Assembly (NCBI RefSeq): GCF_040183065.1
Contig: NC_091132.1
Coordinates: forward strand, 157,020,102-157,084,101
From: Periplaneta americana
Lineage: Eukaryota > Arthropoda > Insecta > Blattodea > Blattidae
Direction: 5' to 3'
DNA length: 64,000 nt
Part shown: in pieces, positions 3,291-56,872 of the stretch
Layout: every line of letters begins with the position of its first letter
Numbering within the stretch: the first letter of the stretch is position 1
Made by a program: the position numbers and the translations under genes
The notes under the pieces: generated by a model
What the model was told of the DNA's origin: nothing
The model's database searches: none
What the model saw: the letters and a program-made list of their open reading frames with translations, nothing else

Positions 3291-3990
3291 ACCAAATCCA
3301 CCAAATTCGTCAATTGAAATTGAATTATTCGGCCATAAATAATTGCTGCTATTATACAGGAGTTAAATAGTTATTCTAGAGCAATCATTTTCCTCCAGTT
3401 TGCCACGGCACACTCAAAAGATCCGCTGGTGTGTGGAAGAATACTGACTGCATTTCAACTCGACCTTCGGTAAACACAGTGTAGGTGTGCGAGCAGCAGA
3501 GAAGAGAATAACTGACGCACATTTGCGGTAGCCAGATCAGTACAATTAGAATATCGTGCCAATCTTTGAAAATATCGTATTTTACTTGGCTTTATGAAAG
3601 AAAATGTTTCGTGCAATAAATGCCTTAGAAACACATTTAATGATATTGTATGTTTTCAAATTTCCTAAATAACAAGTTAATTATCGCACTAATGTTGCAG
3701 TGTAATAATTTTCTGTCATTAAATTTTGCGTTTCTATTATAAACATTAAATAAATGTACAAAAATTGTGTTATTTCTATTTGTGAATAATATATATTTTG
3801 TTTCTCTTCTCAACGTCTTTCGCACCATGTGCCTTTTCACCATTCATCATATTATCATTCCCCGGCATGTTGACTCACAAATAATTCATAACTCACAAAT
3901 AATTCATAGGAAATTAAAAATATATTTAATATATTAATGCACATACATATACTTCATTTATTTGTATTTTGTAATATATTAGTTTGTTCA

Positions 3991-6530: not shown

Positions 6531-6692
6531 TACCTACATATGTGGGATCTGCATGGAATGATAGCCCTTTATCGACAGTCCATGAAACTCGCATAAACTC
6601 ATTTCGCCACATGTGCTGTTTCTAAAATCCCTGATTCAACTGTATCTATATTTGTTCGACTATTTTATAGACTCATAGTATATTTCCTTCAG

Positions 6693-7764
6693 GATTGCAG
6701 CTACCAGCGAGAGGGCTGTATCATCAGAATTCGACTGTTTTGCACTTGAAGAGAACCGGACAGTGTGTGACATTCCGAAGAATTCAGGTCCTTCAGAAAA
6801 ACCTTCGCGGACTCGTGAATTCGAGAAGAAATTCCTAATTGAATTGTCAAAAATACCTATCCCGAATGCTGCAAAATGGAGCATACATACAGCCAAAGAC
6901 GTAGGCAAGAAACCTTTTAAGTGCAATGTTTGTAATAAATTTTTTTCAAGTTTATCGTACCTAAAAACTCATGGACGCCGGCATTTGGGCGAGAAACCTT
7001 TCGAGTGCGATGTTTGTGGCAAGAGCTTGTCGCAATCTAGTAACCTAAAAGTGCATAAACTCATGCATGCAGGCAAGAAACCTTTCAATTGTCATGTTTG
7101 TGGTAAATGCTTCTCCCAATCGATAAACCTAAAATATCATGAACGCATTCACACTGGCGAGAAACCTTTCAAATGTAATGTTTGCTGTAAATATTTCTCG
7201 ACGCAGAGTAATCTAAAAAGTCATCAACTTGTACATACGGGGGAGAAACCTTTCAAATGTGATGTTTGTGGTAAGTATTTCAGCCAATCGACAAACCTAA
7301 GATGTCATCAACGGCGGCACACTGGCGAAAAACCTTTCAAATGTGATATTTGTGGCAATAGCTTTTCGCAATCTAGTAGCCTGAAGATTCATAAACTATT
7401 GCATACAGGAGAGAAAGCGTTCAAATGTAATGTTTGTTGTACAAATTTCTCGACACTGAGTAACCTAAAATGTCATCAACGTATACATACTGGGGACAAA
7501 CCTTTCAAGTGTGATGTTTGTGGCAGATGTTTCTCCAGAGCACATCACCTAAGATGTCATGAACTCTGGCACACAGGAGAAAAACGCTTCAAATGCGATC
7601 TCTGCGGTAAGTGCTTTCCGCTGTTTGGAACGTTAAAAAAGCATTTGCGCCAGCACACAGGGGAGAGACCTTTCAAGTGTAGTGTTTGTGCTAAGTGTTT
7701 CTGTACTAGGAGTAGCGTAAGACTCCATGAACTTCGGCACACGGGCGAGGAACCTTTCAAATGA
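6693..7764 (+). CDS. C2H2 zinc-finger gene A, terminal exon with ten fingers
   Basis: The acceptor TCCTTCAG ends at 6692. The first base completes an Arg codon with the preceding exon, and the frame then runs 356 codons to TGA 7762-7764. About 70 residues of acidic/serine-rich linker (IAATSERAVSSEF and onward) precede a run of ten C2H2 fingers of 28 residues each joined by TGEKPFKC-type linkers. The Cys and His ligands appear intact in all ten. Family knowledge: such poly-finger proteins are nuclear sequence-specific DNA binders, usually transcriptional regulators. The stop falls right after the linker following finger 10 (EEPFK), yet finger-like sequence continues downstream, so the array was once longer. 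It has the same length as the gene B exon (1072 nt) but different helix residues in most fingers. The target is unknown. Confidence 0.93.
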
Positions 7765-11107: not shown

Positions 11108-13107
11108 CAGTGGCGGCTCGTGCCGGATAAATTAGGTGAAGGTCAATAGAATTCTAGGTAATTTCCTGGAATCGTTATATAGCCGTGACGTCGCGAATGC
11201 TTTTGTAACCTATACGATGGTCATATTGAATTAATGTAATATATTCACCATTTTCTTAAGTTTTATGAAAAGCACAGCATATAAAATAAACAAATTTTCA
11301 ACATTTTCGGAAGCTACTCCCCTTAATCCCGAAGAATTCACTGTCCCAGCAAAACTTCCGCACAATACATACCACAACATAAAACAACCACAAGTCCCCA
11401 TGACATAAAAAAGACAAAATCTAACACATTTTATACAACACATCAAATTAAAAGAGTACACAAGAAATAGGACCCATAACAAAATTCAAAATCACAATCA
11501 TAATCGTAAACTGTATTCATATTTTAAATCAACTTCGGAACATGCAACTTCCGATATAAGCTTACCTATCCAGTAAAATCAGTAGCTACAATTAAATCAA
11601 AGCAGTATTCTGTTGAACAGAAAACTTACACTTGAACGGAAAAGAAGGGGGCACTAGTAATTTCATCTCTTACAAGTTCATTGATGCATTCAGAAATGCA
11701 ATCAATTATTTCATTTTGAATCGTTTTAGATTTCCCAGAAAGAACCGGTCTAATTTTTTTCATAGTGATTTCTAATTTTCATAGGGCCAATGAAATGAGA
11801 GCCAATAATTCTTTGAAATTCCCCCTGTTCTGTGACGAAATACTCTCATCATGACCGCGGAAAGCCAACTCCTGCTTGCTTAGAAACAATACCGTATCGA
11901 TTGCGGTGTGCATTACCAGTCTATTTAAACATACGATTTCATTAAATTGACTTACGTATAACCTATAACTTTCCTTTAGTGCATCCGCAATGGTGTTCAT
12001 GTTCTTCTGCAGGGCCTTTAATTGCAAAATACATTTAATGTGTTCAGCTGAATCTGCATGGCTGTAAAGACCGCGATTGACATTTCTGAAATCGCAAAAT
12101 CCAGTTGAATTCCAAGCGGGTTTCTTGTTCCCCAGAAGAAGACAAGGCCAACAATACAACTTCTCGTTTTAGTGACTCCCACATAACCAGTTGCAATCGG
12201 CATACCACGAATCTTGAAACTGAATATTGTATGACCGACCACCACTTTTCACTTTTTTCATAGTTATATTAATGTGACTTGTTCTGCGGTATTTTAAAAT
12301 ATCTTGCTTATCTTCTGCACACCAACGAGAGAACGGTGTCTCCAAAAGATTACACACTTAATCGTTTAACGAATTCATGTTTTCATCGCATTAATACACG
12401 TAGTAACACCTTCACACTTCGCTGCACTTATCACAACAAAGAATACGTAAAGCGAAATCGTTGGTCAGCGCGGGTCAAATGTACAACGTAGTTTCAAATG
12501 TTATGCCAACTTTCTTTATTACAGGGTACTCAAATTATTTCAAAATCCATACAAAACATAATATTCAAGAGATGCTAACGTTAAAAAAATACCAAAATAT
12601 ATACGTTATATGCTAAATTTAAACAATATTTAACTTCTTTGTAGAATATTTTATGTTTTCTTATTTAGTTGCAAAATATTACAGTTTACCACCCTGATCC
12701 AATGTTTGGACGAGAGAGAGATTCTGTCTTTCAAGAATAGAGCAAGGAGATGAATGCCTGCTCCACAGACCCTCATAATAGCCTCGCAAAAGGGACCGGT
12801 AATTCATAGTAAGCAACTCGTTGTCATGGCAACCGGGTGTGTTTACTGAAGGCCAAAAGGAAAGTCTCATTCGGACCTTCAGCTGGTCTGCTAGCCACGT
12901 GGCCTGGCTGGTGAGGGGTTCATGTGAAATGCTGCAGTGAACGTTAACTGAGCGGATTAAGCCGAACAAGATATTAAAAAATAGAGCAAAATATGGTTTA
13001 GTGAAGGATTCATTTTATTTTAATTTATTGATAAAATATATTTTATTAAAGCACGAAAAAAGGGGTGAAGGTGGCCTTCATGTACTTCACTTGAATAACC
13101 GCCACTG
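11108..13107 (-). mobile_element. hAT transposon, 2.0 kb, internally decayed
   Basis: The ends are CAGTGGCGGCTCGTG and AATAACCGCCACTG, a 9-bp perfect terminal inverted repeat. An 8-bp TSD TGATATAG/TGATATAA lies at 11100-11107 and 13108-13115, and the empty site TGATATAA is in copy B at 61703-61710. On the minus strand, 11779-12159 encodes 126 residues including YCWPCLLLGNKKPAWNSTGF and SKQELAFRGHDES, typical of hAT transposases of the ZMYM1-like group (TTF-type finger region). Most of the catalytic part is missing. The insertion is specific to copy A. Confidence 0.92.
11779..12159 (-). pseudogene. hAT transposase fragment (TTF-type finger region)
   Basis: A 126-residue minus-strand frame inside the 2.0 kb hAT element. 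It holds a Cys-containing YCWPCLLLGN segment near the N-terminus, a CDFRNVNRGLYSHADSAEHI segment and the SKQELAFRGHDES motif near residues 93-105. A further minus-strand piece at 12018-12245 overlaps in another frame, showing frameshifts. It lacks the C-terminal hATC dimerisation region, so it is not functional. Confidence 0.8.
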
Positions 13108-13655: not shown

Positions 13656-15088
13656 TACTTACTTACAAATGGCTTTTAAGGAACCCGAAGGTTCATTGCC
13701 GCCCTCACATAAGCCCGCCAGCGGTCCCTATCCTGTGCAAGATTAATCCAGTGTCTATCATCATACCCCACCTCCCTCAGATCCATTTTAATATTATCCT
13801 CCCATCTACGTCTCGGCCTCCCTAAAGGTCTTTTTCCCTCCGGTCTCCCAACTAACACTCTATATGTATTTCTGGATTCGCCCATACGTGCTACATGCCC
13901 TGCCCATCTCAAACGTCTGGATTTAATGTTCCTAATTATGTCAGGTGAAGAATACAATGCGTGCAGTTCTGTGTTGTGTAACTTTCTCCATTCTCCTGTA
14001 ACTTCATCCCGCTTAGCCCCAAATATTTTCCTTAGCACCTTATTCTCAAACACCCTGAACCTATGTTCCTCTCTCAGAGTGAGAGTCCAAGTTTCACAAC
14101 CATACAGAAGAACCGGTAATATAACTGTTTTATAAATTCTAACTTTCAGATTTTTCGACAGCAGACTGGATGATAAGAGCTTCTCAACCGAATAATAACA
14201 CGCATTTCCCATATTTATTCTGCGTTTAATTTCCTCCCGAGTGTCATTTATATTTGTTACTGTTGCTCCAAGATATTTGAATTTTTCCACCTCTTCGAAG
14301 GATAAATCTCCAATTTTTATATTTCCATTTCGTACAATATTCTGGTCACGAGACATAATAATATACTTTGTCTTTTCGGGATTTACTTCCAAACCGATCG
14401 CTCTACTTGCTTCAAGTAAAATTTCCGTGTTTTCCCTAATCGTTTGTGTATTTTCTCCTAACATATTCATGTCATCCGCATAGACAAGAAGCTGATGTAA
14501 CCCGTTCAATTCCAAACCCTGCCTGTTATCCTGAACTTTCCTAATGGCATATTCTAGAGCGAAGTTAAAAAGTAAAGGTGATAGTGCATCTCCTTGCTTT
14601 AGCCCGCAGTGAATTGGAAAAGCATCAGATAGAAACTGACCTATACGGACTCTGCTGTACGTTTCACTGAGACACATTTTAATTAATCGAACTAGTTTCT
14701 TGGGAATACCAAATTCAATAAGAATATCATATAATACTTCCCTCTTAACCGAGTCATAAGCCTTTTTGAAATCTATGAATAACTGATGTACTGTACCCTT
14801 ATACTCCCATTTTTTCTCCATTATCTGTCGAATACAAAAAATCTGATCAATAGTCGATCTATTACGCCGAAAACCGCACTGATGATCCCCAATAATTTCA
14901 TCTACGTACGGAGTTAATCTTCTCAAAAGAATATTGGACAAAATTTTGTACGACGTCAACAAAAGTGATATTCCTCGAAAGTTACCACAGTTGGTTTTGT
15001 CCCCCTTTTTAAAAATAGGTACAATTATGGACTCCTTCCATTGTTCTGGTACAATTTCCTTTTCCCAAATAGCAAGTACAAGTTTATA
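13656..15088 (-). mobile_element. 5'-truncated LINE, copy A specific
   Basis: A nine-base TSD AATTCTACT lies at 13647-13655 and 15089-15097, and copy B has the uninterrupted site near 62225-62235. The 3' end (left) carries a TAAG tetranucleotide run instead of a long poly-A, as RTE-like elements do. The element is cut off inside the reverse-transcriptase domain. Confidence 0.92.
13676..15088 (-). CDS. LINE reverse transcriptase, 3' part (RTE-like)
   Basis: An uninterrupted minus-strand frame of about 470 codons ends at 13676. The reverse-transcriptase blocks are in order: [18 protein letters not shown] near residue 35, [11 protein letters not shown] (catalytic Asp about 115), [13 protein letters not shown] about 171, and YADD about 212-215. 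The C-terminal region has LYGCETWTL and [13 protein letters not shown]. The frame is open upstream to 15115, but those last codons read flanking DNA beyond the TSD, so no native start exists. The endonuclease domain is missing through 5' truncation. The open frame suggests a recent insertion. The clade call (RTE-like) is from motif recall. Confidence 0.88.
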
Positions 15089-15291
15089 AATTCTACTATA
15101 TAATAATAAAGTCATATGTTTAATTCCATTCGAAGTATTTCATGTTGATTGTACTTAAACATAATTTTTAAGGGTTTGTTCATAAACGAATTCATAGCGT
15201 AATGGGTATGATAGTGATTTACTAAACGAAAGATTCTAGGATATCCCGGCGCATTTAAAGGTAAGTGAGATAGCCCAATCTAATACAAAGT

Positions 15292-24240: not shown

Positions 24241-24720
24241 GTAGCATCCATTCGAACTTGTCTCGCTCTAGTAATATAAGAAGAGATGTTAGAGATCACA
24301 ATAATTTGCTACTTGAGTCAATATTAAACAGAACAACTCTACTACAATTCTGTCACTCACTACTCTCAGGAAAATCATTTAACACAACTCATTTCAAAAC
24401 ATATTTCACATTTGACGGTATACTTTTCTTGTTATAGATTGTCATTATGAGGTGAAATATACTTCTATGTGGAAATATAAAAAAAAGTAAACATGTATTT
24501 CAACAAAACAAAATGATATTACAGAGCTATTTCCTTATATGGTGCATTACTAGGCTTTTTGTGCAACTTATGTTTCACTATTGACTCTGAAGTGTGTTCA
24601 CATGCGTTCGTTGACATCAGGATCTAATAATAGAGTTGTGAGACATTGAAATTGTCTCTGATTTTTTGTGAACAGTTACATATAATATATTTAATAATAA
24701 TTATGTTTTGTGTGTTACAG

Positions 24721-24858
24721 GAAGGAGATGTATTAGATCAGCACTTCACTGAAATAAAGACGGAATGTAAGAGCCACAGCTACGATCTCATATCAGAGAT
24801 GACAGTTGATAAAACACCTGTGCTAATGGACTTTCCCGTCATGAAAAGTGAAGTTGAG
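24721..24858 (+). CDS. C2H2 zinc-finger gene B, exon 2
   Basis: The acceptor GTGTTACAG ends at 24720 and the donor GTGAGT starts at 24859. The exon is 138 nt, phase 0 at both ends, 46 residues beginning EGDVLDQHFTEIKTECKSHS and ending FPVMKSEVE. It is homologous to gene A exon 2005-2142 and to a second copy at 31330-31467. Its surrounding intron sequence (24600-25440) is also homologous to that around 31330, so a block of about 0.9 kb was duplicated in tandem within gene B. The peptide is acidic with IKTE and MKSE motifs and belongs to the non-finger N-terminal region. Confidence 0.88.
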
Positions 24859-25808
24859 GTGAGTCAGTTTATGAAGTGAGTTGGTCAGTAGTTCTGCCTC
24901 TGTTACATACTGGCTGATGGTGTCTGATAGATTCAGGTGACCAGTGGATACGATTTTTCTGTCATGCTGTCTATTTCTTCATCCTTTATCATTCGTTAAT
25001 CTTTTCCACCCCAATTTTATTATAGAAATTACAATCCTGAACGTTCACTAAATTATATACATTTTGATGATTTGATCCCCTCTGATGTTGGCATGTTGCT
25101 TTTAATTTAATTGACAGTGCAGTGTGGAATAGAGGTCAATCTCAGTTAATCCCGTGAAAGGTGGCCAAACTGGTGGTTTGCATCTGGTTTGAGAAGTTCA
25201 CTTAATTGTGATTTTTTAAATTAATTAGTTTATTAGCCAAACTCCACATATTTGCTGTCTATTTCTTGGGACCAGTTGTTTGTAACTACGCCTTAGTATC
25301 ACAAGTTACAAATACTACTTCATAGTTCCTTTTCCATCCTACTCCTTCCCATCCTAGCATCGTTACACTGACTGTTACTTGAGGACAGAGTATTATTCCT
25401 GTCTTCCACTCCAACACCTTCAGTAAACCAATGCACAAGATTATGAACAATAAAATCATTCTAGACGAGGCCTTTCATACAAATTATATGAATGCTGACT
25501 CTGGAGTGTGTTTACGTGCATTCATTGTCATCAGGATTTAATAATAGATTGAAGAGACATTAAAATAGTAACATGTGTTTCGTGAACAATTTTATAATTG
25601 AAGGTTTCAGAGCCATAGCAGGCCAAGCGCCATTTATTAAAATCGGAGAAAGAAAGGGTTAAAGTTAAGTATATACTATAATTGAAGGGTTCTGAGCCAT
25701 AGTGGGCCAAGCGCCATTTATTAAAAGCAGAGAAATCATTACTATAGATTACTATAGTTTCATGAAGATTGACATATCATTTAGTTTTAATGTGTAGGTC
25801 ATTCCATT

Positions 25809-26189
25809 GTAACAAACGTTACATTCTTACATGGATTTGAACATTTGACATTTTTCTGCAGTCAACTGTAGACAAGAGCAATGCTTTTGAACATACCTAC
25901 TAATAGAGGATAGTGTGAAGATTATGTAGTACCAATAGTATAACATTGTGATGGTGCATGTTCTTTGGTTTACAATTTGAAAAAATGTAACAAACGTTAC
26001 ATCAAAGGACATGGATTCTCAAGTTGTGAAAGACTGTTGTGATTCTCTGTTCTTACAATATTTTATGTCAGATAAAAAAAATACAGCTTGAATCTAGGAA
26101 GATTACAGAACTAAATGACATAAACGTTTTTAATTCTACAGATGTCTGTTACTTGAAAATAATTAAAAACTTGGAGTAACAAACGTTAC
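25809..26189. promoter_or_regulatory. Left subterminal motif cluster (3 copies)
   Basis: GTAACAAACGTTAC occurs exactly at 25809-25822, 25987-26000 and 26176-26189, spaced 178 and 189 bp, between the left TIR and the transposase 3' end. These are probable transposase-binding sites (inference). Confidence 0.8.
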
Positions 26190-28409
26190 AAAGTCAGAAT
26201 TGAACAGTTTGTAAAGAACATCCTAGTGATCATTTTAAAAAAAAGGTAATTTTTGAGAGTACAATAACATTCGTACTCAACTAGCACAGTAAAATTTGTG
26301 TTGAAAATAAATTTTCCCCTAACTTCCTTAGGTTTAGGCAATGTGCTTAAAACTAGGTCTGGGGATATTTCATCTATATCGTCATTTGTTGGGTACACAA
26401 AGTAAGTGTTCTTTCCTTCTCTTCTTCTCATGAATTGTACACTACACATATTACTCACATAATTGAGAAGGAATATATGTCCGACATAATATTGTCCAGT
26501 TTGTGGGTAATGAACCAATACGTAATCACAAACTGATAGTTCTGAAAATTTTGAATTCATGGCATGATCAATGGAATGAGTAGATTTTGTAGGACTGCTT
26601 GTTTCTTCCTGCGTTTCTTTTATTTTATGTTTCTTAAATGGTTCAACATCTCCAATATTTGAGAAGAGCCCAACTGTGCTTGGTGCAGCAATTTTCACAC
26701 ATCGAGCTTGTTGGATTTCTACCACTGGCAATGCACTTTTCCATTCTTCTACATATTTTGCAGCAATTGAGTCAATTTTACCAGCAGGGACATAAAAACA
26801 ATGTATGTTGTAAATGTTAGATTTTGTGATGTCATAAAATTGCTCAGCATTTTGCACGGTAGCATTTTCTTGTAAAACTCGCTTCCATACACTGCGTTTA
26901 AGGGTAGCTCCAACACCATCGTGTGGGCCCTTACCATGGTAAGACTCGTTATAGTTCCATTCAACATTACATCCTAGAATTTTGGATAGTGTGCACAAGT
27001 ATGATATTGCCTTCCGGTTTTTAAAATGTTGTGCAGCACCATCAGTCCACAGATAAACTGAAGTTATAGGAGACTGCTTTAATGTAGACAGGTAGTTTAG
27101 TAGGATTTCATTGAAAGCAGCAACTTCAGCAGTGCCATGACTCTGTGCATCAGTAATGACTGCTAAACATATTGTTGTGACATCATCAGTAGAAGATTTT
27201 CGGAAATAGCAAACTACAGTATAGATTGTTGTTGATGTTTCTGCTGATGTGTGTGTCCAGTGTGCTGCCATAACGTCATTCTGAAATTTTGCTACATAGT
27301 TCTCAGCAAAATATGTTAGGAGAAGCAGCTGTCCTGGTTGTAGTGATGATTTTTGATTCTGCTGTTCCTTCCATTGTCTTCCTTTATTGTATATATGATT
27401 GGATAGTTGCGTTAGCTGATCCTTGAAATAAGTGAAGAATTCATTTATAGACATTATCTTTTTGAACCAGATGTCCACCTTCCCAATGCTTGGTGTGAAC
27501 CTCATCACAGTCATCATAAATTTTTGTAATCAGCGTGGATTCAATATCTCCACATTCTTGGCAACTTCTTTTCATACAGTTCTTATTTTCAGTTTGACAA
27601 ACTGTTTCTTTCAGAAGCTCCTTGTTGGTTTTTGGTTTTTCACTTGTTTTCCAGGGCGCTGCTGAAATCATTAACTGCGTATTTTCACAGTAAGGGCAGC
27701 AGCACATTATCTGATTCTTATCAGAGACCAACCTGACATGTTTCGGTCGCATTTCACAAAATTTTGATAGACCAATCTTTACATTTGGATTCTGCTCTTG
27801 AAAAAGTGTGTATACTTCACGCAAATGATACACAAGCAGCATTTTTTGCATATATTCTTTCTTTCCATCCTCATGTATTATAATAAAATCTTTTTTTCCA
27901 GGGAGTTGGCGGGAAACATCGTCACATTCATAAAAATCCTTCACCATTTGCATAGTATCTGCAGTAATAGGCAATGTAGAAGATGTGGAATGTTTTGCTG
28001 GCTGTACTAATAGATTAAATGATTCGGCAAGCTTTCTTACTACGGCTGTTTGTTTTCGAGGGCTCCTTGGAAGGTTTTTTTGTGCTCTTTTTATAGCCTT
28101 TCCAAAAGAATTTGCACTCTTATAAGGAGGACTTCCTGAAGAACCGTCTTTCAAAATACATGAACTTAAAACTCTTGCTTTTTGTCTTCTACGATATTCT
28201 TATACTCGCTTCCTAGTGGCTTCTCTTTCTGCAGATTTTTCCGATTTTGATTTTGGCTTTTTCCTAAGTTTCCTCATAATATTACGACACTTTTCTAGTC
28301 TCTCTTGAGTTTTTTCTGTGTCCATTCCAGCTCTGTACTCACACATTCTCTCAGCAGCAGATTTTGGAGCTTTTTTCATACTGAAATGCATATATGGCCC
28401 ATCAAACAT
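26186..28409 (-). pseudogene. Transposase of the unclassified TIR element, one stop and one frameshift
   Basis: Read from 28409 leftward: a basic N-terminal block (SAAERMCEYRAGMDTEKTQE then KKPKSKSEKS), one in-frame TAA at 28200-28202 (frame continues EYRRRQKARVLSS), a middle part with RAQKNLPRSPRKQ and a Cys-rich section (CCCPYCENTQ; CMKRSCQECGD), then a frame change near 27450-27515, and a C-terminal 443-residue frame. That frame contains LAVITDAQSHGTAEVAAFNE, YLWTDGAAQHFKNRKA and NESYHGKGPHDGVGATLKR. The acidic residues in TDGAAQHFKN and GKGPHDGVG look like RNase-H-fold catalytic positions (inference). Apart from the two lesions the coding region is intact, so it is young. From memory, similar proteins are widespread in insect and cnidarian genomes as uncharacterised loci. 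Confidence 0.72.
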
Positions 28410-28512
28410 GAAAACGTACTAAAACACGTCTTATTTTAAATATAAGCCTACCAAACATAGCCAGTAATCAATAATTTCATGTATTACATCTGATTATCTT
28501 ATTATTTTTTGT

Positions 28513-28723
28513 GTAACAAACGTTACCACATTGTTATGTAACATTTGTTGCTATTCAATGTAATGTTTGTTACACAGATTTTATATAAAATTATTATTTT
28601 AAAAATCAGAACGTCTAGTATTTATGTAGCTTACATGAGGAAGATAATACAAAGTTTCATTTTAAAATAAAAAACAGTTTTCTAATTATGAAATAAAATT
28701 AATATTTTTGTAACAAACGTTAA
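28513..28723. promoter_or_regulatory. Right subterminal motif cluster (4 copies)
   Basis: GTAACAAACGTTAC lies at 28513-28526, a degenerate copy at 28538-28551, an inverted copy GTAATGTTTGTTAC at 28560-28573, and GTAACAAACGTTAA at 28710-28723. All are upstream of the transposase start, so they may also overlap its promoter. Confidence 0.75.
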
Positions 28724-29437
28724 ATAACCTAAGTATTTCTTTTAACAGTGGATAACTACTTTCATAGATTATATTTCCACTCATTGTTACTACATACAGG
28801 CACTGAAACATTTACTTTCAAAGGTAATATAGCACTAACTTCATGGAATTTAATATTCTGATAGCTATGTCTTAAAATCAAATGACGTAATCTTACCAGA
28901 ATCCCTCTGTAGCAGCCATGTCGACTTTGCTTGTTGGGAACAAACAAATTATGGCGATAAAATTAAAATTATACCATGCTGTATAAAGTCAATGAATTTG
29001 AGAACTTTTTAATGCAAAAGAACAGTTTCTTCGATTAAATATAAAATTTTGTCTTTATGTCCCTCATCTCGTGGAATGACCCGTGTACACTTTATTTTAC
29101 TTGTTATGTTTCCATTAAATTAAGGTAATAACTTCATTTTAACCCTTGTTTTCTACGGTTTTAGTAAATGGCACTTGGCCCAGTATGGCTGTGAACCCTT
29201 CAATTTAATGAAGATTGACATATCATTTAATTTTAATGTGCATACTTTATCCTACTTGCTATATGCTTTGTTAAATTATAGTAATCACACAGTCTAATAC
29301 ATACAGTCGCGCAACTTCAACACTCTTTTTTTTGTCAACATTCGCGACACTAGCGCCCAAGCGGCAGGCAAGGCACAGGTTGATACAGTCAGCACGTGCT
29401 TTTAAGGGATGCGAGATGTTATAATAACGTTTTAATC

Positions 29438-29538
29438 ATGCGTCGGAATAAAGACAATGTGTGCAGTGCTGTAAATTGCAGTAACAAGTTTAAATCTCCG
29501 AATTTGTCGTTCTTCAGATTCCCTAAAGACCAAGAGAG
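29438..29538 (+). pseudogene. THAP-domain N-terminal exon in P-like element
   Basis: ATG 29438, then 33 codons plus two bases up to a GTAAGT donor: MRRNKDNVCSAVNC with the C-x4-C pair of a THAP zinc module, followed by LSFFRFPKDQER, matching the FPKD-type segment that follows in THAP domains. The remaining THAP residues (C-x2-H and AVPTIF box) are not found in the next candidate exon after 29715, where the frame soon stops. P-element transposases begin with THAP domains, which agrees with the TIR and TSD. It is not expected to be functional. Confidence 0.68.
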
Positions 29539-30288
29539 GTAAGTGTATATCAGAAAATCCTAACTCAGTAATAACCAATAATCCACAATGTCGATAGCCT
29601 ATGTATTGTATTCTATAAAGCATTTATTAGTTATCAGTTACCTATTTATATGTCAGGAAGGACAGTTTAAATGAAAACAAAGTAAATACCTGTTACAGTA
29701 TTTATTTTGTTGCAGGGATCATATGTGTAAATGTGTAACCATTCCGATTTTGGATAATGTATCTGCAGTTTTTAATGCAATTAGGCCTAATTCCATAATA
29801 TTTTAATTCGTGTTTTTTTCTTTATATTTTTTTTAAAGTTGAATGTTATATTGCATTCAAGTAGGGATCATGGTGTTAATTTTTCAAGAATTCATGTAGT
29901 ATTGTATTCCTTTTGCAAAATATTCACTTCTTGAATAAATCCAGACTGTGTCGATAAATTTCTGATGTGTTGGTGTAGATTGATGTGGCAGACGTATGAA
30001 GTTCTCAAGAAATAAAATAGCGATTTTAAATTTAATATAAAATAGCAATCTTTTCTGTAATAATTTGCATGACTGTTATTGGTGTTGATTTTACAGTTCC
30101 AGTGATTATTTATTGAAAATAGAAGTACATTTTCTGAGTTACTTGAAGTTAATTTTTTTTAACAAAATTGTGTGTTCATTTATTTGTTCTCACCTACGTG
30201 ATATTAACAGTAATTACATGTAAATTGCATACTATATAGGTAGGATATGTTTAAATTAAGCCTATGTGTGAAAACTGGGAATGTAATG

Positions 30289-30482
30289 CAGGGGCGTATT
30301 TTGCGGGCTACCGGTGGTAGCCCAAGGAAATTACAAAAGAAAAAGTTTATAATATAACATAATGTAATAATTTTGTATTATTAGTTTACCATAGTAATTA
30401 AAATTAAAGTAATTGTTAGATATATTTTGTGTAATAATAGGGTCAGCGGTAGCCCAAGCCCTTTAACCAGTATACACCCCTG
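30289..30482. mobile_element. hAT-like MITE, 194 bp, with perfect 8-bp TSD
   Basis: The ends are CAGGGGCGTATTTTGCGGGC and CAGTATACACCCCTG. The TSD ATGTAATG lies at 30281-30288 and 30483-30490. A near-identical sibling is at 51421-51611. Confidence 0.93.
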
Positions 30483-31329
30483 ATGTAATGTAAAATACGG
30501 TAAACTTGCCATAAAAAAAGTTACATCATAATATCAGCACTATTTGTGACTCAAAATAATAAAGGAAATACCGGTTCTTAAGAAATGTAAATAATAATGA
30601 ACTTTATAAATCGGTGTCTGTCATATTAAGATATAAATGCTCTGCTTTTTTATTTTCAAGTTTACCTCAGCGGTCGTGTTTATCCCAATTTGCGGTATGG
30701 AAAATAGTTAATATCTCAGGAAATACGGAGAGGAATTCACCACGCGATGTACCCTACGAGATATGCCCTGCAGTTTTGAAACTACTAATTTTGACTCTTC
30801 TCGCAGGAAATATAGAGATCCAATGATGCATAAATATATTTAGGAATGAACTGAATTAACCGTCCACGTACGAACAATTATGTTATATCAAACCATGATA
30901 AGTGATCAGGGCCATGATTCAGCTGTAATGAGCAGAAAGAATTACGTTTATTCCCAGCTTCTGAAACTTGTAGATTAGCTGCGTGTGAAATACTTCTAGG
31001 ATTCTAAAGTAAAATTAATAAGAACCATATACACTTACTGTACTGCATAAAAATAAAAAATAAATTACGCAAAACCCGTTTTCTGATGTATCACATGTCG
31101 TCTGCACACTTTTAACTTGCCTGCCGCTAGAGGGCTACTGTCGCACCAGCTGTCAAATGTTGCCATATTTTATACGTATGAGTTGCGCGTCTGTATGTAT
31201 TAGACTGTGGTAATCACTTAATTTTAACTCTTATTTTCTCCATTTTTAATAAATGGCGCTTGACCCACTATGGCTCTGAACCCTTCAATTATGATATATT
31301 TAATAATTATTATGAATTGTGTGTTGCAG

Positions 31330-31467
31330 GAAGAAAATGTATTAGATCTACACGTAACTGAAATAAAGACGGAATGTATGGACCGCAGCTATGATCTGAA
31401 ATCAGAGATAACATTTGATGATACTCCTGTGCCAATTGACTTTCCAATCATGAAGAGTGATGCTGAG
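31330..31467 (+). CDS. C2H2 zinc-finger gene B, duplicated exon 2
   Basis: The acceptor TGTTGCAG ends at 31329 and the donor GTGAGT starts at 31468. The exon is 138 nt, phase 0 at both ends, encoding EENVLDLHVTEIKTECMDRS and onward, ending FPIMKSDAE. Length, phase and splice sites match exon 2 at 24721, and introns on both sides are homologous, so this is a tandem exon duplication. Splicing could use either copy or both without changing frame. The reading frame is free of stops, so it is probably still usable. If both are included the predicted protein is 503 residues, otherwise 457. Which form is made cannot be seen from DNA. Confidence 0.8.
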
Positions 31468-32110
31468 GTGAGTGCTGTTTACGAACTGTGTTGGTCGGTT
31501 GGTCGGTAGTTCTCACTGTGTTATATACTGGCTGATGTGGCTGCTACACTTAGATGACCAGGGAGTACGATTGTTGCTCTGATGCTGTCCATTTCTTCAT
31601 CCTGCTATTCTTTGTGAATTTTTCCCACCCAATTTTTCTGGTAGAGACTGCGATGCTGAACGTTCACTAAATCATACACATTTTGAACTTTTAATTACTG
31701 CTGATAATTTTGACCCGTGTTCACTCTGATTTAATAATCAGCCCAGTGTAGAGTGGGATCAATCTCAATTACTCTGGTGGTACGTGCCAGTTATGTTGTG
31801 CTTCGTGTAGGAAAAACCGTTAAGTACCGTATATTTCTTTTAATTCGTCTTTTGGCAGCTAAAATCTACATGATTATTGCCTATTTCTTGGGACAAATTG
31901 CTGGTAAATACGCTCGAACATTACAATTTACGAAGACACCTTCAAAGTTGTATTACCATCGTCCTCGACTCTGCAGTAGCCACCTCACATTGACTGTGAC
32001 ATGGTTAGGGTGACTAGATTTACATCGATAAAAAAGAGGACACAAAGCTTCAAAAAGGAGGCCATTGTTAAAAAAAAGAGGACGGAAAATATGTACCTAG
32101 ATTTAGACTT

Positions 32111-34695: not shown

Positions 34696-35982
34696 CTGGG
34701 TTCAAAAAGTTTCGTATTAATATATAACATGGGATATTATACATTTGTGTTTTTGGTAACATTCATGATGTCATTTCCTTAAAGTTGGTTGATAATGGCG
34801 ATTGTTGGTTTTGAGTTGTAGGCAATTGTTTATCATAGTGTTTTGTTTGTTCGTCGCATTTTGTAATTATGTCCACAGAGCAACGTACAAACATCAAGTT
34901 CTGTGTTTTGTTACACAAAACTCCTGCAGAGACATTAAGATTGTTGGAAGAAGCATATGGCGAAGCAGCAATGAAGAAAACTCAAGTGTATGCCTGGCAT
35001 AAACGCTTTTCTGGTGGTCGCGATAGCATCAAAGATGACATACGCAGCGGCCGACCAACAACTGCAACAAATGAAGCAATCGCTCAGCGTGTGCGTAATG
35101 TTGTGAGGGACGACCGACGTAAAACCATAAAAGAGATAGCAGCAGAGGTCGGAATATCAGTCGGAAGTGTACACAATGTTCTTCACAAGCATCTCAACAT
35201 GCATTACGTGTCTCAGAAGTTAGTTCCGAAAATGTTGTCAGCAGAACAGAAAGAAAGAAGAATGACTCTTGCTGGGGACATGATCAGTATGGCTGATGAA
35301 GATGGTGATTTCTTAAACAAAATTATTGCTGGTGATGAAACTTGTTGCTACTTGTACGACCCAGTCCCTAAACGACAGTCATCTGAGTGGAAATCGAAAA
35401 CATCTCCTCGGAAGCAAAAATTTCCTAGGGACACTTCCAAAGGCAAAGTTATGTTGGAAGTTTTCTTCGACTCTCAGGGTCTCATCCACCATGAGTTCAT
35501 TCCAGAAGGTCATACTGTAACGAAAGAATTGTACATAGAAATCCTCCGTCGCCTCCGGAACGCAGTGAGAAGGAAATGTCCAGAAAAGTGGGTAGAAAAC
35601 AACTGGTTCCTTATGCATGACAATGCACCTGCTCATCGCGCAATTATTGTAAAGAATTTTCTTGCCAGGCACAACATAACTGCTTTGGATCATCCACCAT
35701 ACTCTCCTGATCTCTCACCATCTGATTACTTTCTGTTTCCCCATCTGAAAAGTCATCTGAAAGGACGGAGATTCAATGCTGAAGAGGTTATCGCAAACGC
35801 GACGAGAGCACTAAGACGGATTTCACAAAATGGCTTCCAGGCCTGCTTCCAGGAACTCTACACGCGTTGGCAAAAGTGTGTTGTTGCGGAAGGCAACTAT
35901 TTTGAAGGGAATGCTTTAGAATAGTGTTTAAGGTACGTTGTTTCTATGATACTAGCAAAGTCCGGGAACTTTTTGAACCTAG
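34696..35982 (+). mobile_element. Full-length mariner transposon, 1287 bp
   Basis: The inverted ends are CTGGGTTCAAAAAGTTTCG and CTAGGTTCAAAAAGTTCCC (right end complemented), flanked by TA at 34694-34695 and 35983-35984. It contains one uninterrupted transposase frame. It lies in the intron between the two THAP exons. Confidence 0.95.
34869..35924 (+). CDS. Mariner transposase, 351 residues, uninterrupted
   Basis: The cut-and-paste transposase of the surrounding element, acting in the nucleus on the TIRs. Residues 1-110 hold the paired helix-turn-helix DNA-binding region (TLRLLEEAYGEAAMKKTQVY, then IAAEVGISVGSVHNVLHKHL). The catalytic triad is visible: D156 in AGDETCCYLYD, D251 in MHDNAPAH and D286 in YSPDLSPSDYFLFP, giving the exact D-x34-D spacing of mariner. 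The usual WVPHEL block is altered to YVSQKLVP. The length is within the family norm (about 345-355). The ATG at 34869 lies about 170 bp inside the left end, as expected. There is no stop or frameshift, so it is young and may be active; activity is not shown. Confidence 0.95.
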   Translation: MSTEQRTNIKFCVLLHKTPAETLRLLEEAYGEAAMKKTQVYAWHKRFSGGRDSIKDDIRSGRPTTATNEAIAQRVRNVVRDDRRKTIKEIAAEVGISVGSVHNVLHKHLNMHYVSQKLVPKMLSAEQKERRMTLAGDMISMADEDGDFLNKIIAGDETCCYLYDPVPKRQSSEWKSKTSPRKQKFPRDTSKGKVMLEVFFDSQGLIHHEFIPEGHTVTKELYIEILRRLRNAVRRKCPEKWVENNWFLMHDNAPAHRAIIVKNFLARHNITALDHPPYSPDLSPSDYFLFPHLKSHLKGRRFNAEEVIANATRALRRISQNGFQACFQELYTRWQKCVVAEGNYFEGNALE

Positions 35983-38697: not shown

Positions 38698-41499
38698 CCA
38701 TTACCGCTCCTATGTTGGAGTCAGTCCGCCACTAAAATATGTCAGCTGCAGTCCTGCGCCGGACTGAGTCCGCCACGTTTCCTACAATGTTTATAAACAC
38801 TCCGAACTCGGAGCAAGGAATGCATGTTGCGTCAGTATGTTATTGAGATTACGATCTGTGCGGTGGTGTTATTTCCGTGTGAATTAGAATTGTTTCCTGT
38901 GCTCTAAAATACATTTTAGAAGTGGCTGCGAATGTTTTATCGTTCTTGTTATCACAATGGCGTCTGCGAGCAGAAATGTTGTCAAAAAAACTAAACACAT
39001 AGTGAAAAAAAAACGGAAGGCTTTGGGCGACGATGAGATACATGAAGACTTGCATGGGGATTGGGAAACTTTTAGTGATGATTCAGACATTGAACTAATT
39101 GAAGACAATGACTCTGATTCTCAAGTAAGTGAAGCCATTTCAAGTGACAGTGACGATTCTGATGACAATCAGTCCAGTTCAAGTGATGTTGAAGATGATG
39201 GTGATGATAAAATAGACAGTGTTGACAATGATGGTTGGGATCATTGGGGTGCTAATGACAATGACTTTCATCATATACCGTTTCGTGGAACAGCAGCTTA
39301 TAAACCTCCCCAGACTGGACGAAAGCCTGATTCACCATTTTTATTTTTTTTTGCTATTTTTTAGCCAGACACTGTTTCAAGAAATAGCTACCGAAACCAA
39401 CAGGTACGTTAGACAAAAAATACAAAAAGTCACACCTTTGCAAAAACATTCAATTTGGAACGGTTGGGAAGATGTCACCGCTGAAGAGCTAATGGCTTTT
39501 CATGGAGTAATACTGAATATGGGAAGACGTATGAAGAGTACTATCAAAGACTTTTTCTCGGAACAATGGTTAGACAGTTCGCTGTTCTACAAAGACATAT
39601 TTTCAAGAAAGCGATTTCTGCAAATATATTGGGGTCTTCATGTCTCTCCCCCTCCTCGAGATGGAACTCCAGACAGACAAATGCAGTCCCGAGCAAGTAA
39701 AGTAAAAAACGTTGTAGATTACGTTGAATAAAAATTTTTGGAATTTTACAGTCCATCGTAATATGTATGTGTGGATGAGTCTACTGTAAATTTCAAAGGA
39801 CGTGTAGTATTCAAGATGTACAACCCACAGAAACCAACAAAATGGGGTCTTCGAATTTATGTAATTGCTGATTCGACAAATGGTTATGTCTGTGGTTTGA
39901 TTCCTTATTATGGATCAGTAACTACAAAAAGTTTGATTCATCCAGAACTGACATTCACCAGCAGAATAGTTCTTCAACTTATAAACAAAGTTCAGAGTGT
40001 AACGAATAAGAAAGGATACCATCTATACACAGACAGGTTTTACACAAACTTGGATCTTGCTCGGGAACTGTTACAAGCAAACGTTCATTTGACTGGTACA
40101 ATAATGCAGAATAGGAAAGGCTTGCCGAAACAAATGAAGAAGAAAGCACTGAAAATAAAGAAACATGAAGTAGTAGCCTACAGGAAGGAAGACAAATATT
40201 TGACATTATCGTGGAAAGACAAGCGAGTTGTTACCATTCTAAGTACATGGCATAATCCAGACACAAGAGAAGTCTCGAGAAAAACTGCGAAGAAAGTAGA
40301 GGTTTTTCAGAAACCTGTTGTTGTTATAGACTACACTTCAAAAATGGGAGGAGTCGATAGAGCAGACCACTACTGTTCAAGCTACGGTTTCCTGAAGAAA
40401 AGTTTGAAATGGTGGCGAAAATTATACTTCTGGATTCTGGAGATTTCCCTTGTAAACAGTTTCCACCTGTATTGAATCAAAACTCAAAAAATCTTCCTGC
40501 TTTGTCTCACCTGGAGTTTCGTAAGAAGATCATCGAAGGATTGGTGGGGAATGTGAGAAACAAAATGTCTCGAAAACGTGGGAGACCAAGTACCGGAGAT
40601 ACAGAAGATCGTCTCAATGGAAAATTACACTTGATCCGGGCACACGAAAGGAAAGTTACGAAGGACTGTGCAGTTTGTTCGAACAGAAAAGTAAAAGGTG
40701 GCAGGAAAGAAACGTCGTTTTATTGTGATACATGTGAGAGGAAGCCAGGACTTCACCCCAACAAGTGTTTCGCCCTTTACCATACAGAGAAGAAGTATCG
40801 ATAGGTATGTATTAGTTCTTATATTTATTTGAAATGTGCATGTAGAATATCTAGCAAAGATACGTGTAGAAAAAATACGCCAATATATATTGGCACGAAA
40901 GTTCCAATAATGTATTACATTTTATGAATTATGTTCTTCTAACAATCCGCCACTGACATTCGTATATATTCATTCTCTTACCACGTCTTCTCTATGGCTA
41001 CAGATCTCATGTGTTTATCTTTCACAGTTATCTTACTATTACAGTGCTAAATATAGATCTTCGAACCTGACCACTGCCAGCTCAGAAGGAAGTGTTGTCT
41101 TATAATGACGGCGAAATATAAACCAAAGATTACGACTTTGGGTGTTTACATGTCGCATATCTCGACCTAAAAGGCTCTTCACATCTCTAAGTTCATATTA
41201 CTTTCATTAGCTTTGAGTTTATTATCTGACGAACGCGAGCAAGCACATGGCTTCACATTCATAAAGGCAAGCCCGTACAGTCGAAAACGAATTATAGTAG
41301 ACAGTTAATATTCAGTGAGACGAATGCGTGAGCCTTTCATATAATATTTTAACCCCATATATCAAAGATTCTTCTCTTTTACGAAAGTTACAAAAGAAAA
41401 TCAAGCAGTGTAAAATAGTAGTTCAATTTGCACTGGTGAGCGTCATTTAAATGGACCAGGCGCATAGTGGCCAAGACTTTTAAATCCGACCAGAAAGGG
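38698..41499 (+). mobile_element. piggyBac transposon, decayed
   Basis: Candidate TTAA target sites lie at 38694-38697 and 41500-41503. The ends start CCATTACC and (complemented) CCCTTTCT, which resemble each other only weakly, so the exact borders are tentative. The interior encodes a transposase in four frame-shifted pieces (38957-40804). GC content and codon pattern do not differ obviously from the neighbours. Confidence 0.75.
38957..40804 (+). pseudogene. piggyBac transposase, at least three frame breaks
   Basis: The pieces in order are as follows. 38957-39364: basic then Asp/Ser-rich N-terminus (DSDIELIEDNDSDSQVSEA). About 39355-39731: NGWEDVTAEELMAFHGVILN and SRKRFLQIYWGLHVS, with stop at 39729. 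39771-40475: catalytic part with CVDESTVNFKGR, LYTDRFYTNLDLA and KMGGVDRADHYCSSYG, the three Asp blocks of the DDE_Tnp_1_7 nuclease. About 40470-40804: C-terminal Cys-rich zinc domain CAVCSNRKVKGG, then CDTCERKPGLHPNKCF. Every domain of a PGBD4-like piggyBac transposase is present, but frameshifts near 39355, 39735 and 40470 prevent translation. Confidence 0.9.
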
Positions 41500-54943: not shown

Positions 54944-55800
54944 TAGCTTGACATGTGCTGTTTCTGCAAGGCATCATATTCTAGTATAATAATTTCAATT
55001 CAACTAAAGTTTATTTGCCAAATTAGGGATATAATATATGCATAGGCATAATATATACATAATACATAAGTTGAGCATATAAATTAACTTCCTTTTTCAC
55101 AATAGGCCACTGAAAAATATTATTGTAAAATTCTTCATATTCATGTAGTATGTAACGCATTAGTTTGTGTATATCGTCAAGTTTCTCTCTTTGAATTGAC
55201 ACGATTTTTTCTGGATATGCTAATGAAGGTAAATGTAGTATTCTCCTTTGTACTTACAAGCAGACATTCTCATGGGGGCAGATAAAATAATGAATCTTGT
55301 TTCTTCCATCATTTTAATATTAAAATTTTGGCCACTCGACCGCAATTATGAAGCTGTAAAAAATAAGTTTCCCTGGGAACCTTTGCAGAAACAGAACAAA
55401 ATTTCATTGTAAATTTTATTGGAATAGATATAGCAATTATTGAGTTATTTTTCAACGTATTCACCAGCAGAATTGAGACATTGTCATTCAGTGGGATCAA
55501 TTTTTGTATCCTTGTGTCGTAGATGTCTGCCATCTGAAATCGGAACCAATGTGTCGGCACATGTCTTTGACATGAGTTGTTTCTGCGCGCTTTCAGGATT
55601 TCACAGGTCTCCAAATGTGAGACGGCTATACTGACATATGTGGTTTCTGCATGGAATAATAGCCCTATATCAACAGTTCATGAACTCGAATAAGCTCATT
55701 TCGCCACAATTAGTGACATGTGCTGTTTCTGCAATCCCTGATTCAATTGTATGTATATTTGTTGCGACTTTTTTAAAGACTCATAGCATCTTTCCTTCAG
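54944..55800 (+). other. Intron end of gene B before the finger exon
   Basis: From about 55140 it is paralogous to 6070-6692, including the possible mariner fossil (55505-55620, minus). GACATGTGCTGTTTCTGCA and the following bases at 55716-55745 also occur inverted at 52430-52465 and partly at 54952, a small local repeat. Confidence 0.55.
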
Positions 55801-56872
55801 GATTGCAGCTACCACTGAGAGGACTGTATCATCAGAATTCGACAGTATTGCACTTGAAGAGGACGAGACTGTGTGTGAGATTCCCAAGACTTCAGGTTCC
55901 TCAGGAAAGCCTTCGCAGACTCGTGAAGACGAGAAGAAATTCCAATTTGAATTGTCTAAAATATCTGTCTCGAATTCTGCAAAATTGAACGGACATTCAG
56001 CGAAGGACGTAGGCAAGAAACCTTTTAAATGCAATGTTTGTAAAAAGTGTTATTCAAAGTCATCGTACCTAAAAACTCATGAACGCCAGCACTCAGGCGA
56101 GAAACCTTCCAAGTGTGATGTTTGTGGCAAGAGCTTTTTGCAATCTAGTAGCCTATATTTGCATAAACGTTTGCATACAGGCGAGAAGCCTTTCAAGTGT
56201 GATGTTTGTGACAAGAGCTTTTCGCAATCTAGTAGCCTAATAAAGCATAAACGCGTGCATACAGGGGAGAAACCTTTCAAGTGTGATGTTTGTGGCAAGA
56301 GCTTGTCGCAATCTAGTAGCCTTAATTTGCATAAACGGTTGCATACAGGCGACAAACCTTTCAAATGTGATGTTTGTGGCAAATGTTTCTCCCAATCGAT
56401 ACACCTGAAATGTCATCAATGCCAGCACACAGGCGAAAAACCTTTCAAGTGCGATGTTTGTGGCCGTCATTTCACGCGTCCAAATAGCCTAATAACACAT
56501 AAACGCGTGCATAAAGGAAAGGAACCTTTCAAATGTGATGTTTGTTGTAAAAATTTCTCGACACTGAGTAGTCTAAAAGGTCATAAACTTCTACACACGG
56601 GGGAAAAACCATTTAAGTGTGATGTTTGTGGCAAATGTTTCTCCCAATCGATTCACTTAAGATGTCATGAGCCCCGTCACACAGGCGAGAAACCTTTCAA
56701 ATGCGATACTTGTGGAAAGTGCTTCGCATTGTTAAAAACATTAAAAAACCACTTGCGCCAGCACACAGGGGAGAGACCTTTCAAGTGTAATGTTTGTGGT
56801 AAGTCTTTCTGTAATAGGAGTAGCATGAGGCACCATGAATTTCGGCACACTGGAGAGAAACCTTTCAAATGA
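55801..56872 (+). CDS. C2H2 zinc-finger gene B, terminal exon with ten fingers
   Basis: The acceptor TCCTTCAG ends at 55800. The first base completes an Arg codon, and the frame then runs to TGA 56870-56872. A linker of about 70 residues (IAATTERTVSSEF, then acidic/Ser-rich) leads into ten intact C2H2 fingers with TGEKPFKCDVC-type linkers. Expected role: nuclear sequence-specific DNA binding; partners and targets are unknown. The exon is 1072 nt, exactly as in gene A, with no indel between paralogs, but helix contact residues (-1, 2, 3, 6) differ in most fingers: finger 8 is Q-I-H-C here against R-H-H-C in A, and finger 6 is R-N-S-T against Q-S-S-I. Fingers 5 and 8 share the same contact set, suggesting exchange within the array. 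As in A, finger-like DNA continues beyond the stop. Confidence 0.94.

Follow-up and report, generated by a model that had tools for sequence, protein, structure and literature searches.

Predicted transposase-binding arrays with family-specific sites and near-constant spacing in a transposon group of Periplaneta americana

At the ends of CACTA/Spm elements, Tn7 and phage Mu, the transposase binds multiple sites in a fixed and asymmetric arrangement. Here we describe transposon T, an element of ∼3.3 kb with its transposase on the minus strand, which differs from those three systems in its transposase and its target duplication. It lies in a 64,000-nucleotide stretch of the Periplaneta americana genome (RefSeq assembly GCF_040183065.1, contig NC_091132.1, positions 157,020,102 to 157,084,101; hereafter the window). 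The hAT elements Hermes, Herves and Kat1 resemble T in having repeated subterminal sites at both ends, the two ends being unlike. The Hermes transposase binds AAGT/AAGC-type repeats (17 and 14) with its own BED fingers; in this element the placement of the left-end repeats relative to the terminal inverted repeat (TIR) is reportedly exact and important, the distal repeats seem dispensable as binding sites, and the target site is 8 bp (PMC10368747). The Herves transposase binds a motif near both ends (PMC3143072), and the Kat1 repeats may aid cleavage (PMC4763223). Unlike Hermes, with its short and numerous repeats, T has eight 14-bp sites and a 4-bp target site duplication (TSD). Multi-site transposon ends are already known, and here they come with family-specific sites on a conserved ruler. 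We interpret the sites of T as arrays on which the transposase is predicted to bind and form an asymmetric multi-site transpososome, in which site and protein would co-evolve under a fixed geometry, and we assign this reading a probability of about 0.7.

In a genome-wide search for copies of T in the 3.23-Gb assembly (91 contigs), 40 of 2,065 candidates were scored and at least 48 matches were obtained. Among the copies listed, 32 near-full copies other than that of the window started at query positions 100–117 and ended at 3399–3417, corresponding to approximately 25797–29082 of the window. An earlier note on this DNA had placed the element at 25683..29204, with TIRs of the TTGAAGGGTT type. 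The boundaries of the other copies correct this to 25796–29082, and their start and end positions rule out the TTGAAGGGTT ends as termini of T; these ends belong to a miniature inverted-repeat transposable element (MITE) of ∼235 bp. Once oriented, the copies of T terminate in GGGTCATTCCA...TGGAATGACCC, and the TIR is 11 bp, GGGTCATTCCA. TSDs were counted in 32 of the 40 copies, the window copy among them, the remaining eight not extending to both ends. The results indicated an exact 4-bp TSD in 26 of these 32 copies, again including the window copy, and an exact 5-bp match in none (0/32); the exact duplications varied in sequence (GCAC, TCTG and GTTA, among others). The copy boundaries and TSD counts also overturned two other candidates, namely AATT as the TSD of T, and the outer MITE as a derivative of T by internal deletion.

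Seven GTAACAAACGTTAC-like sites, clustered at both ends, had been listed in the earlier note, and all were recovered at 25809–28723: four are exact, two have one mismatch and one has two, with three on one side of the broken gene, four on the other and none inside it. Outside T, the 64 kb contain one further GTAACAAACGTTAC-like site at ≤ 2 mismatches, and a first-order simulation of 25684–29201 gave a mean of 0.04 such sites and a maximum of 1 (300 runs). The T consensus was built on 35 of the 40 copies after a length filter (L049, L050, L051, L054 and L055 were excluded). It is 3,309 bp long (3,310 with the last base), with a mean divergence of 1.3%, and contains GTAACGTTTGTTAC eight times without mismatch, four times in either non-coding end (starts 360, 514, 536, 561, 2897, 2917, 3106 and 3284). 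One of these sites is lacking in the window copy. In 200 simulations no 14-mer occurred more than twice, compared with these eight exact sites. The 5′ group of four starts ∼360 bp from its tip. Of the 3′ group, one site lies 2 bp inside the TIR, and the distances from the tip to the ends of the other three are ∼191, 380 and 400 bp. Absence of the motif from other copies, which the earlier note had named as a ground for refutation, was not what the genome-wide check found: all eight sites are kept at ≤ 3 mismatches in 31 of the 40 copies, and the other nine, some of them truncated, keep three to seven. Site 536 (window 28538–28551) alone differs among subfamilies, the other seven being exact in the consensus; among the 35 copies it is exact in 6, reads ATAACAAAAGTTAC in 16 and has other variants in 13. 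This is a natural series on the question of which sites matter.

Searching this genome at the protein level for diverged relatives gave 15 loci (L056–L070). Recurrent 14-mers, detected without T's motif, were present in six of the first eight relatives, which represent five families: F2 (L056 and L068; site GTTACGTCAGTTAC), F3 (L057 and L064; GTGTGTCCGTGAC, 13 bp), F4 (L058 and L059, and also seen in L062 and L070; GTTCGTGTGTCAC, 13 bp), F5 (L060 and L069; GTCGTGTCTGTCAC) and F6 (L061; GTCGTGTAGGTCAC). The sequence of L064 ends before its last site, and L065 is a second F6 copy with one recognisable site. A GTnn(n)GTnnGTnAC skeleton fits the 13–14-bp sites of all six families, GTAACGTTTGTTAC of T included. 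The identity of the sites was 0.951 within families (115 pairs) and 0.622 between them (665 pairs), where the degenerate F2 site at 637 was excluded from the counts and the F4 figures came from L059. At the skeleton-variable positions the identity was 0.935 within families versus 0.274 between them, a split that is descriptive because the skeleton was drawn up once the sites had been inspected and those of F3 and F4 are 13 bp long. The 10-bp flanks of the sites had an identity of 0.342 within families; identity stops at the site edge, and gene conversion of long tracts is therefore unlikely. The last 3′ site lies 2–4 bp from a TGGAAT- or TTGAAT-type TIR in the six families. Exact 4-bp TSDs were found for L057 (AGCA) and L061 (AGCT); L068 has TCTA on both sides, and L069 has TATT if its first base is a changed G (by eye). 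A more distant pair of relatives, L066/L067, matches at 93.8% over ∼2.8 kb; it has an SHGKS-type motif, and no site array is visible in it.

We also analyzed the geometry of the arrays. In the 3′ layout the typical intervals are ∼21, 188 and 179 bp, with the final site beside the TIR. Listed for T, F2, F3, F4, F5 and F6, respectively, they were 20, 22, 21, 14, 23 and 23 bp between sites 1 and 2; 189, 187, 188, 197, 187 and 188 bp between sites 2 and 3; and 178, 180, 166, 179, 178 and 179 bp between sites 3 and 4 (F4 values from L058). Second copies gave 22, 188 and 180 bp (L068) and 23, 186 and 178 bp (L069). At the 5′ end, the distance from the tip to the core of the first site was 363–365 bp in the six elements with a placeable tip (five families; 363 bp in L069). 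The 5′ array has the orientation +,−,−,+ in T, F2 and F4 (L059), the fourth site of F2 being degenerate, and consists of two sites in the same orientation, 166–169 bp apart, in F3, F5 and F6. The 3′ intervals had ranges of 9–14 bp, compared with 381 and 308 bp for two distances that served as controls within these elements: from the last 5′ site to the ATG (43–424 bp in six families, with the F2 site at 637 kept) and from the stop to the first 3′ site (49–357 bp in five of the six families, with the F6 value obtained by hand). The inter-site DNA was nearly unalignable between families (z of −0.8 to 3.4 versus shuffles, 30 comparisons). Its length is kept, and its sequence hardly.

In the mechanism that we propose, T, a DNA transposon that has a single transposase gene, TIRs of 11 bp and TSDs of 4 bp, would have its 14-bp sites bound by its own transposase. 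Several bound subunits would mark the two unlike ends and hold them in one ordered complex before cleavage, for which Hermes is the nearest worked case. The transposase would have a DDE/D-type core and move T by cut and paste, and the geometry of the complex would fix the spacing of the sites. The near-constant spacing, combined with a family-specific version of the site, suggests joint evolution of the enzyme and its landing sites. The proposal in the earlier note, an assembly based on multiple subterminal sites, is strengthened by the retention of the eight sites in most T copies and by the same layout in five further families.

Several observations weigh against this interpretation. All six array-bearing families were drawn from one genome, and L063 and L066/L067, related in protein, had neither an array nor a paired TIR in the DNA fetched. 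In the T family, the site columns were 0.021 diverged versus 0.0136 in the other non-coding columns; overall they are not less diverged because site 536 and the CpG positions vary, and with site 536 removed their divergence is ∼0.009 by hand arithmetic, with approximately three quarters of the changes on the CG pair. Copies with an altered site 536 still multiplied (16 of 35 have one variant), and therefore not every site is essential. In L070 (F4) the last two 3′ intervals are 211 and 179 bp, 211 replacing 197, and 3 of the 30 inter-site comparisons reached z values of 2.9–3.4. A single-sequence AlphaFold model, made with an RNase-H fold in view, was unusable and too poor to carry weight (predicted local distance difference test 36, predicted template modelling score 0.24), and both the binding and the mobility of T are predictions from sequence.

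Among the other explanations, the one that survives best, though we consider it unlikely, is that the sites control transcription and have no role in end recognition; they would be read by a host factor, or by the transposase in regulating its own gene. The four sites upstream of the ATG are in the expected position of a promoter, but in all six families four sites lie downstream of the stop, one of them 2 bp from the 3′ TIR, and a host factor would leave the family-specific site sequences unexplained. Less probable again is that the arrays are chromatin features, with sites at the nucleosome-repeat distance that are read in linkers by a chromatin protein or the transposase. The 3′ intervals of ∼188 and ∼179 bp and the 363–365 bp at the 5′ end (364 is approximately twice 182) are consistent with this, but the pair 14–23 bp apart and the 5′ intervals of 149–169 bp misfit a single repeat length. 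Mere inheritance of sites and spacing from a recent common ancestor, or functionless repeats, is already disfavoured and very improbable: the families are homologous and occur in one genome, but their transposases are 28–36% identical (five of the six families measured: T, F2, F3, F4 and F6), the intervals persist while the inter-site DNA hardly aligns, and the site flanks differ within an element.

The transposase gene of the window copy is broken by a single in-frame stop and a single frameshift, as described previously, and the two peptide motifs quoted at that time are both present; in L035 the frame is open over 711 codons. Common to seven aligned proteins are six Cys (236, 238, 271, 278, 283 and 286), F-x-E-N, Q-x-E, H-W, D-G and H-x-K, and a candidate acidic triad in P0003 consists of D366 (D in 4/7), D456 (7/7) and D497 (6/7). 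The Pfam search of P0001 and P0003 gave nothing better than E 0.02; weak matches to FMP23 (E 0.064), Use1 (0.027) and SGF29_Tudor (0.05) carry no weight, an HU-CCDC81 match (E 0.00075) in only one of seven relatives was not relied on, and no BED or hAT domain was matched by the T transposase. Neither PHROGs (best E 0.14) nor PDB, searched by sequence and by profile (best E 0.028, others weaker), gave a credible match. Viral contigs scanned with P0001, alignment A1 and two degenerate patterns gave no relative, the pattern matches being due to chance; scans of genome contigs gave chance matches; and tblastn against plasmids and phages gave no match. The earlier note could not place the superfamily of the element, and with the searches of Pfam, PHROGs and PDB this stands.

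The TSD pattern of T argues against Sola2, Kolobok, piggyBac, hAT and P. For Sola2, 4-bp TSDs and short TIRs are reported, as in T, with TSDs that are AWWT or AT-rich (AWWT in three Dictyostelium fasciculatum families; PMC3627910); only 4 of the 26 exact TSDs of T are AWWT (by hand). Kolobok has 5′-RR...YY-3′ termini (GG...CC) and a TTAA TSD (PMC9587614); the termini of T are of this 5′-RR...YY-3′ type, and its TSD is not restricted to TTAA. The same comparison speaks against piggyBac, whose TSD is also TTAA, and P0003 had no DDE_Tnp_1_7 match, whereas the piggyBac-like frame of the window matches this model at E = 3.7e-50. The 4-bp TSD, with no exact 5-bp match, differs from the 8-bp duplication of hAT and from the 7–8-bp TSD of P. 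Literature searches by TSD phrase and protein motifs returned no description of the T group; for the TIR and site, the 30 papers listed of 88 hold only TIR-like 10–11-mers and look unrelated by title; and for subterminal repeats and spacing, none of the 15 papers listed of 19 is, by title, on the T group. T may already be catalogued under some name in Repbase or Dfam. The coordinates of T and the elements around it are summarized below.

Table 1. Transposon T, its predicted sites and the surrounding nested elements, in window coordinates.
Feature	Coordinates	Strand	Basis
Transposon T, window copy	25796..29082	-	copy boundaries, ends and flanks; terminal base 25796 unlike the family's
Left TSD of T, GTGT	25792..25795		flank comparison (L016, ACAC in element sense)
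Right TSD of T, GTGT	29083..29086		flank comparison
T 3′-end TIR, GGTCATTCCA plus changed base 25796	25797..25806		oriented copies
T 5′-end TIR, TGGAATGACCC on + strand	29072..29082		oriented copies
Transposase C-terminal frame P0001, presumed catalytic core	26186..27529	-	reading frames, alignment of relatives
Transposase middle frame P0002, Cys-rich region	27441..28199	-	reading frames, alignment of relatives
Site 1, exact, 2 bp inside 3′ TIR	25809..25822	+	motif scan
Site 2, exact	25987..26000	+	motif scan
Site 3, exact, overlaps stop of longest frame	26176..26189	+	motif scan, reading frames
Site 4, exact, 5′ array	28513..28526	+	motif scan
Site 5, 2 mismatches, variable among subfamilies (consensus site 536)	28538..28551	-	motif scan, copy comparison
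Site 6, 1 mismatch	28560..28573	-	motif scan
Site 7, 1 mismatch, 5′ array	28710..28723	+	motif scan
MITE Y, AATT-flanked, host of T	25684..29201		nesting, MITE copies
MITE X, AATT-flanked, host of Y and P-like element	25600..31286 (pieces 25600-25679, 29206-29287, 31217-31286)		nesting, MITE copies
P-like element in X, THAP exon, TSD GTAATCA (29281-29287, 31210-31216)	29288..31209		repeats, Pfam

The elements are nested, with X outermost, Y and the P-like element in X, and T in Y; one MITE copy of the window is thus inserted in another. An empty site was found in a paralogous intron, where 24582–24674 and 24681–25067 match 25496–25588 and 31290–31686; the pieces 24681–25067 and 31290–31686, of exon and intron, are 80% identical. 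If AATT is the TSD of X, a discrepancy of 4 bp with the paralogous site remains (by eye), which we attribute to divergence. Copies of the MITE, with the TIR GAAGGGTTC, are abundant: 40 of 722 candidates were scored and gave at least 41 matches, and both ends were found in four of eight fetched copies (231–236 bp; AATT twice and AAAT twice). Copies include L072, L073, L075 and L077. These flanks, AATT or AAAT, agree with the AWWT-type TSD reported for Sola2. The P-like element has the TIR CACAGTCTAATACATACAG and a 7-bp TSD, and its THAP exon (29438–29539, +, E 0.00056, under Pfam's cut-off) is followed by a GTAAGT splice-donor-like end. Elsewhere in the window, C2H2 zinc-finger frames at 6679–7764 and 55787–56872 suggest a zinc-finger gene cluster. 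A mariner-type transposase at 34839–35924 forms one open frame of 361 codons (Transposase_1, E 7.4e-16), the piggyBac-type transposase piece (DDE_Tnp_1_7) is at 39762–40475, and a reverse transcriptase frame and a DUF4371 piece are at 13676–15139 (RVT_1, E 9.3e-39) and 11779–12168 (E 9.1e-8).

Going beyond co-evolving sites and protein, a broader proposal, possible but tentative, is that this transposon lineage has ends that are measured, not just read: the transposase would assemble on dispersed sites that form a scaffold of fixed length, and families in the same genome would split by concerted switching of all their sites and the protein, preventing cross-mobilisation. A transposase and many dispersed sites that change together are hard to study, and related systems are usually far apart. 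The group of T, for whose protein no Pfam model was found, provides six families in one genome, with readable sites of their own and nearly one layout, in which the recognition code, its orthogonality and the role of spacing would be testable by swaps.

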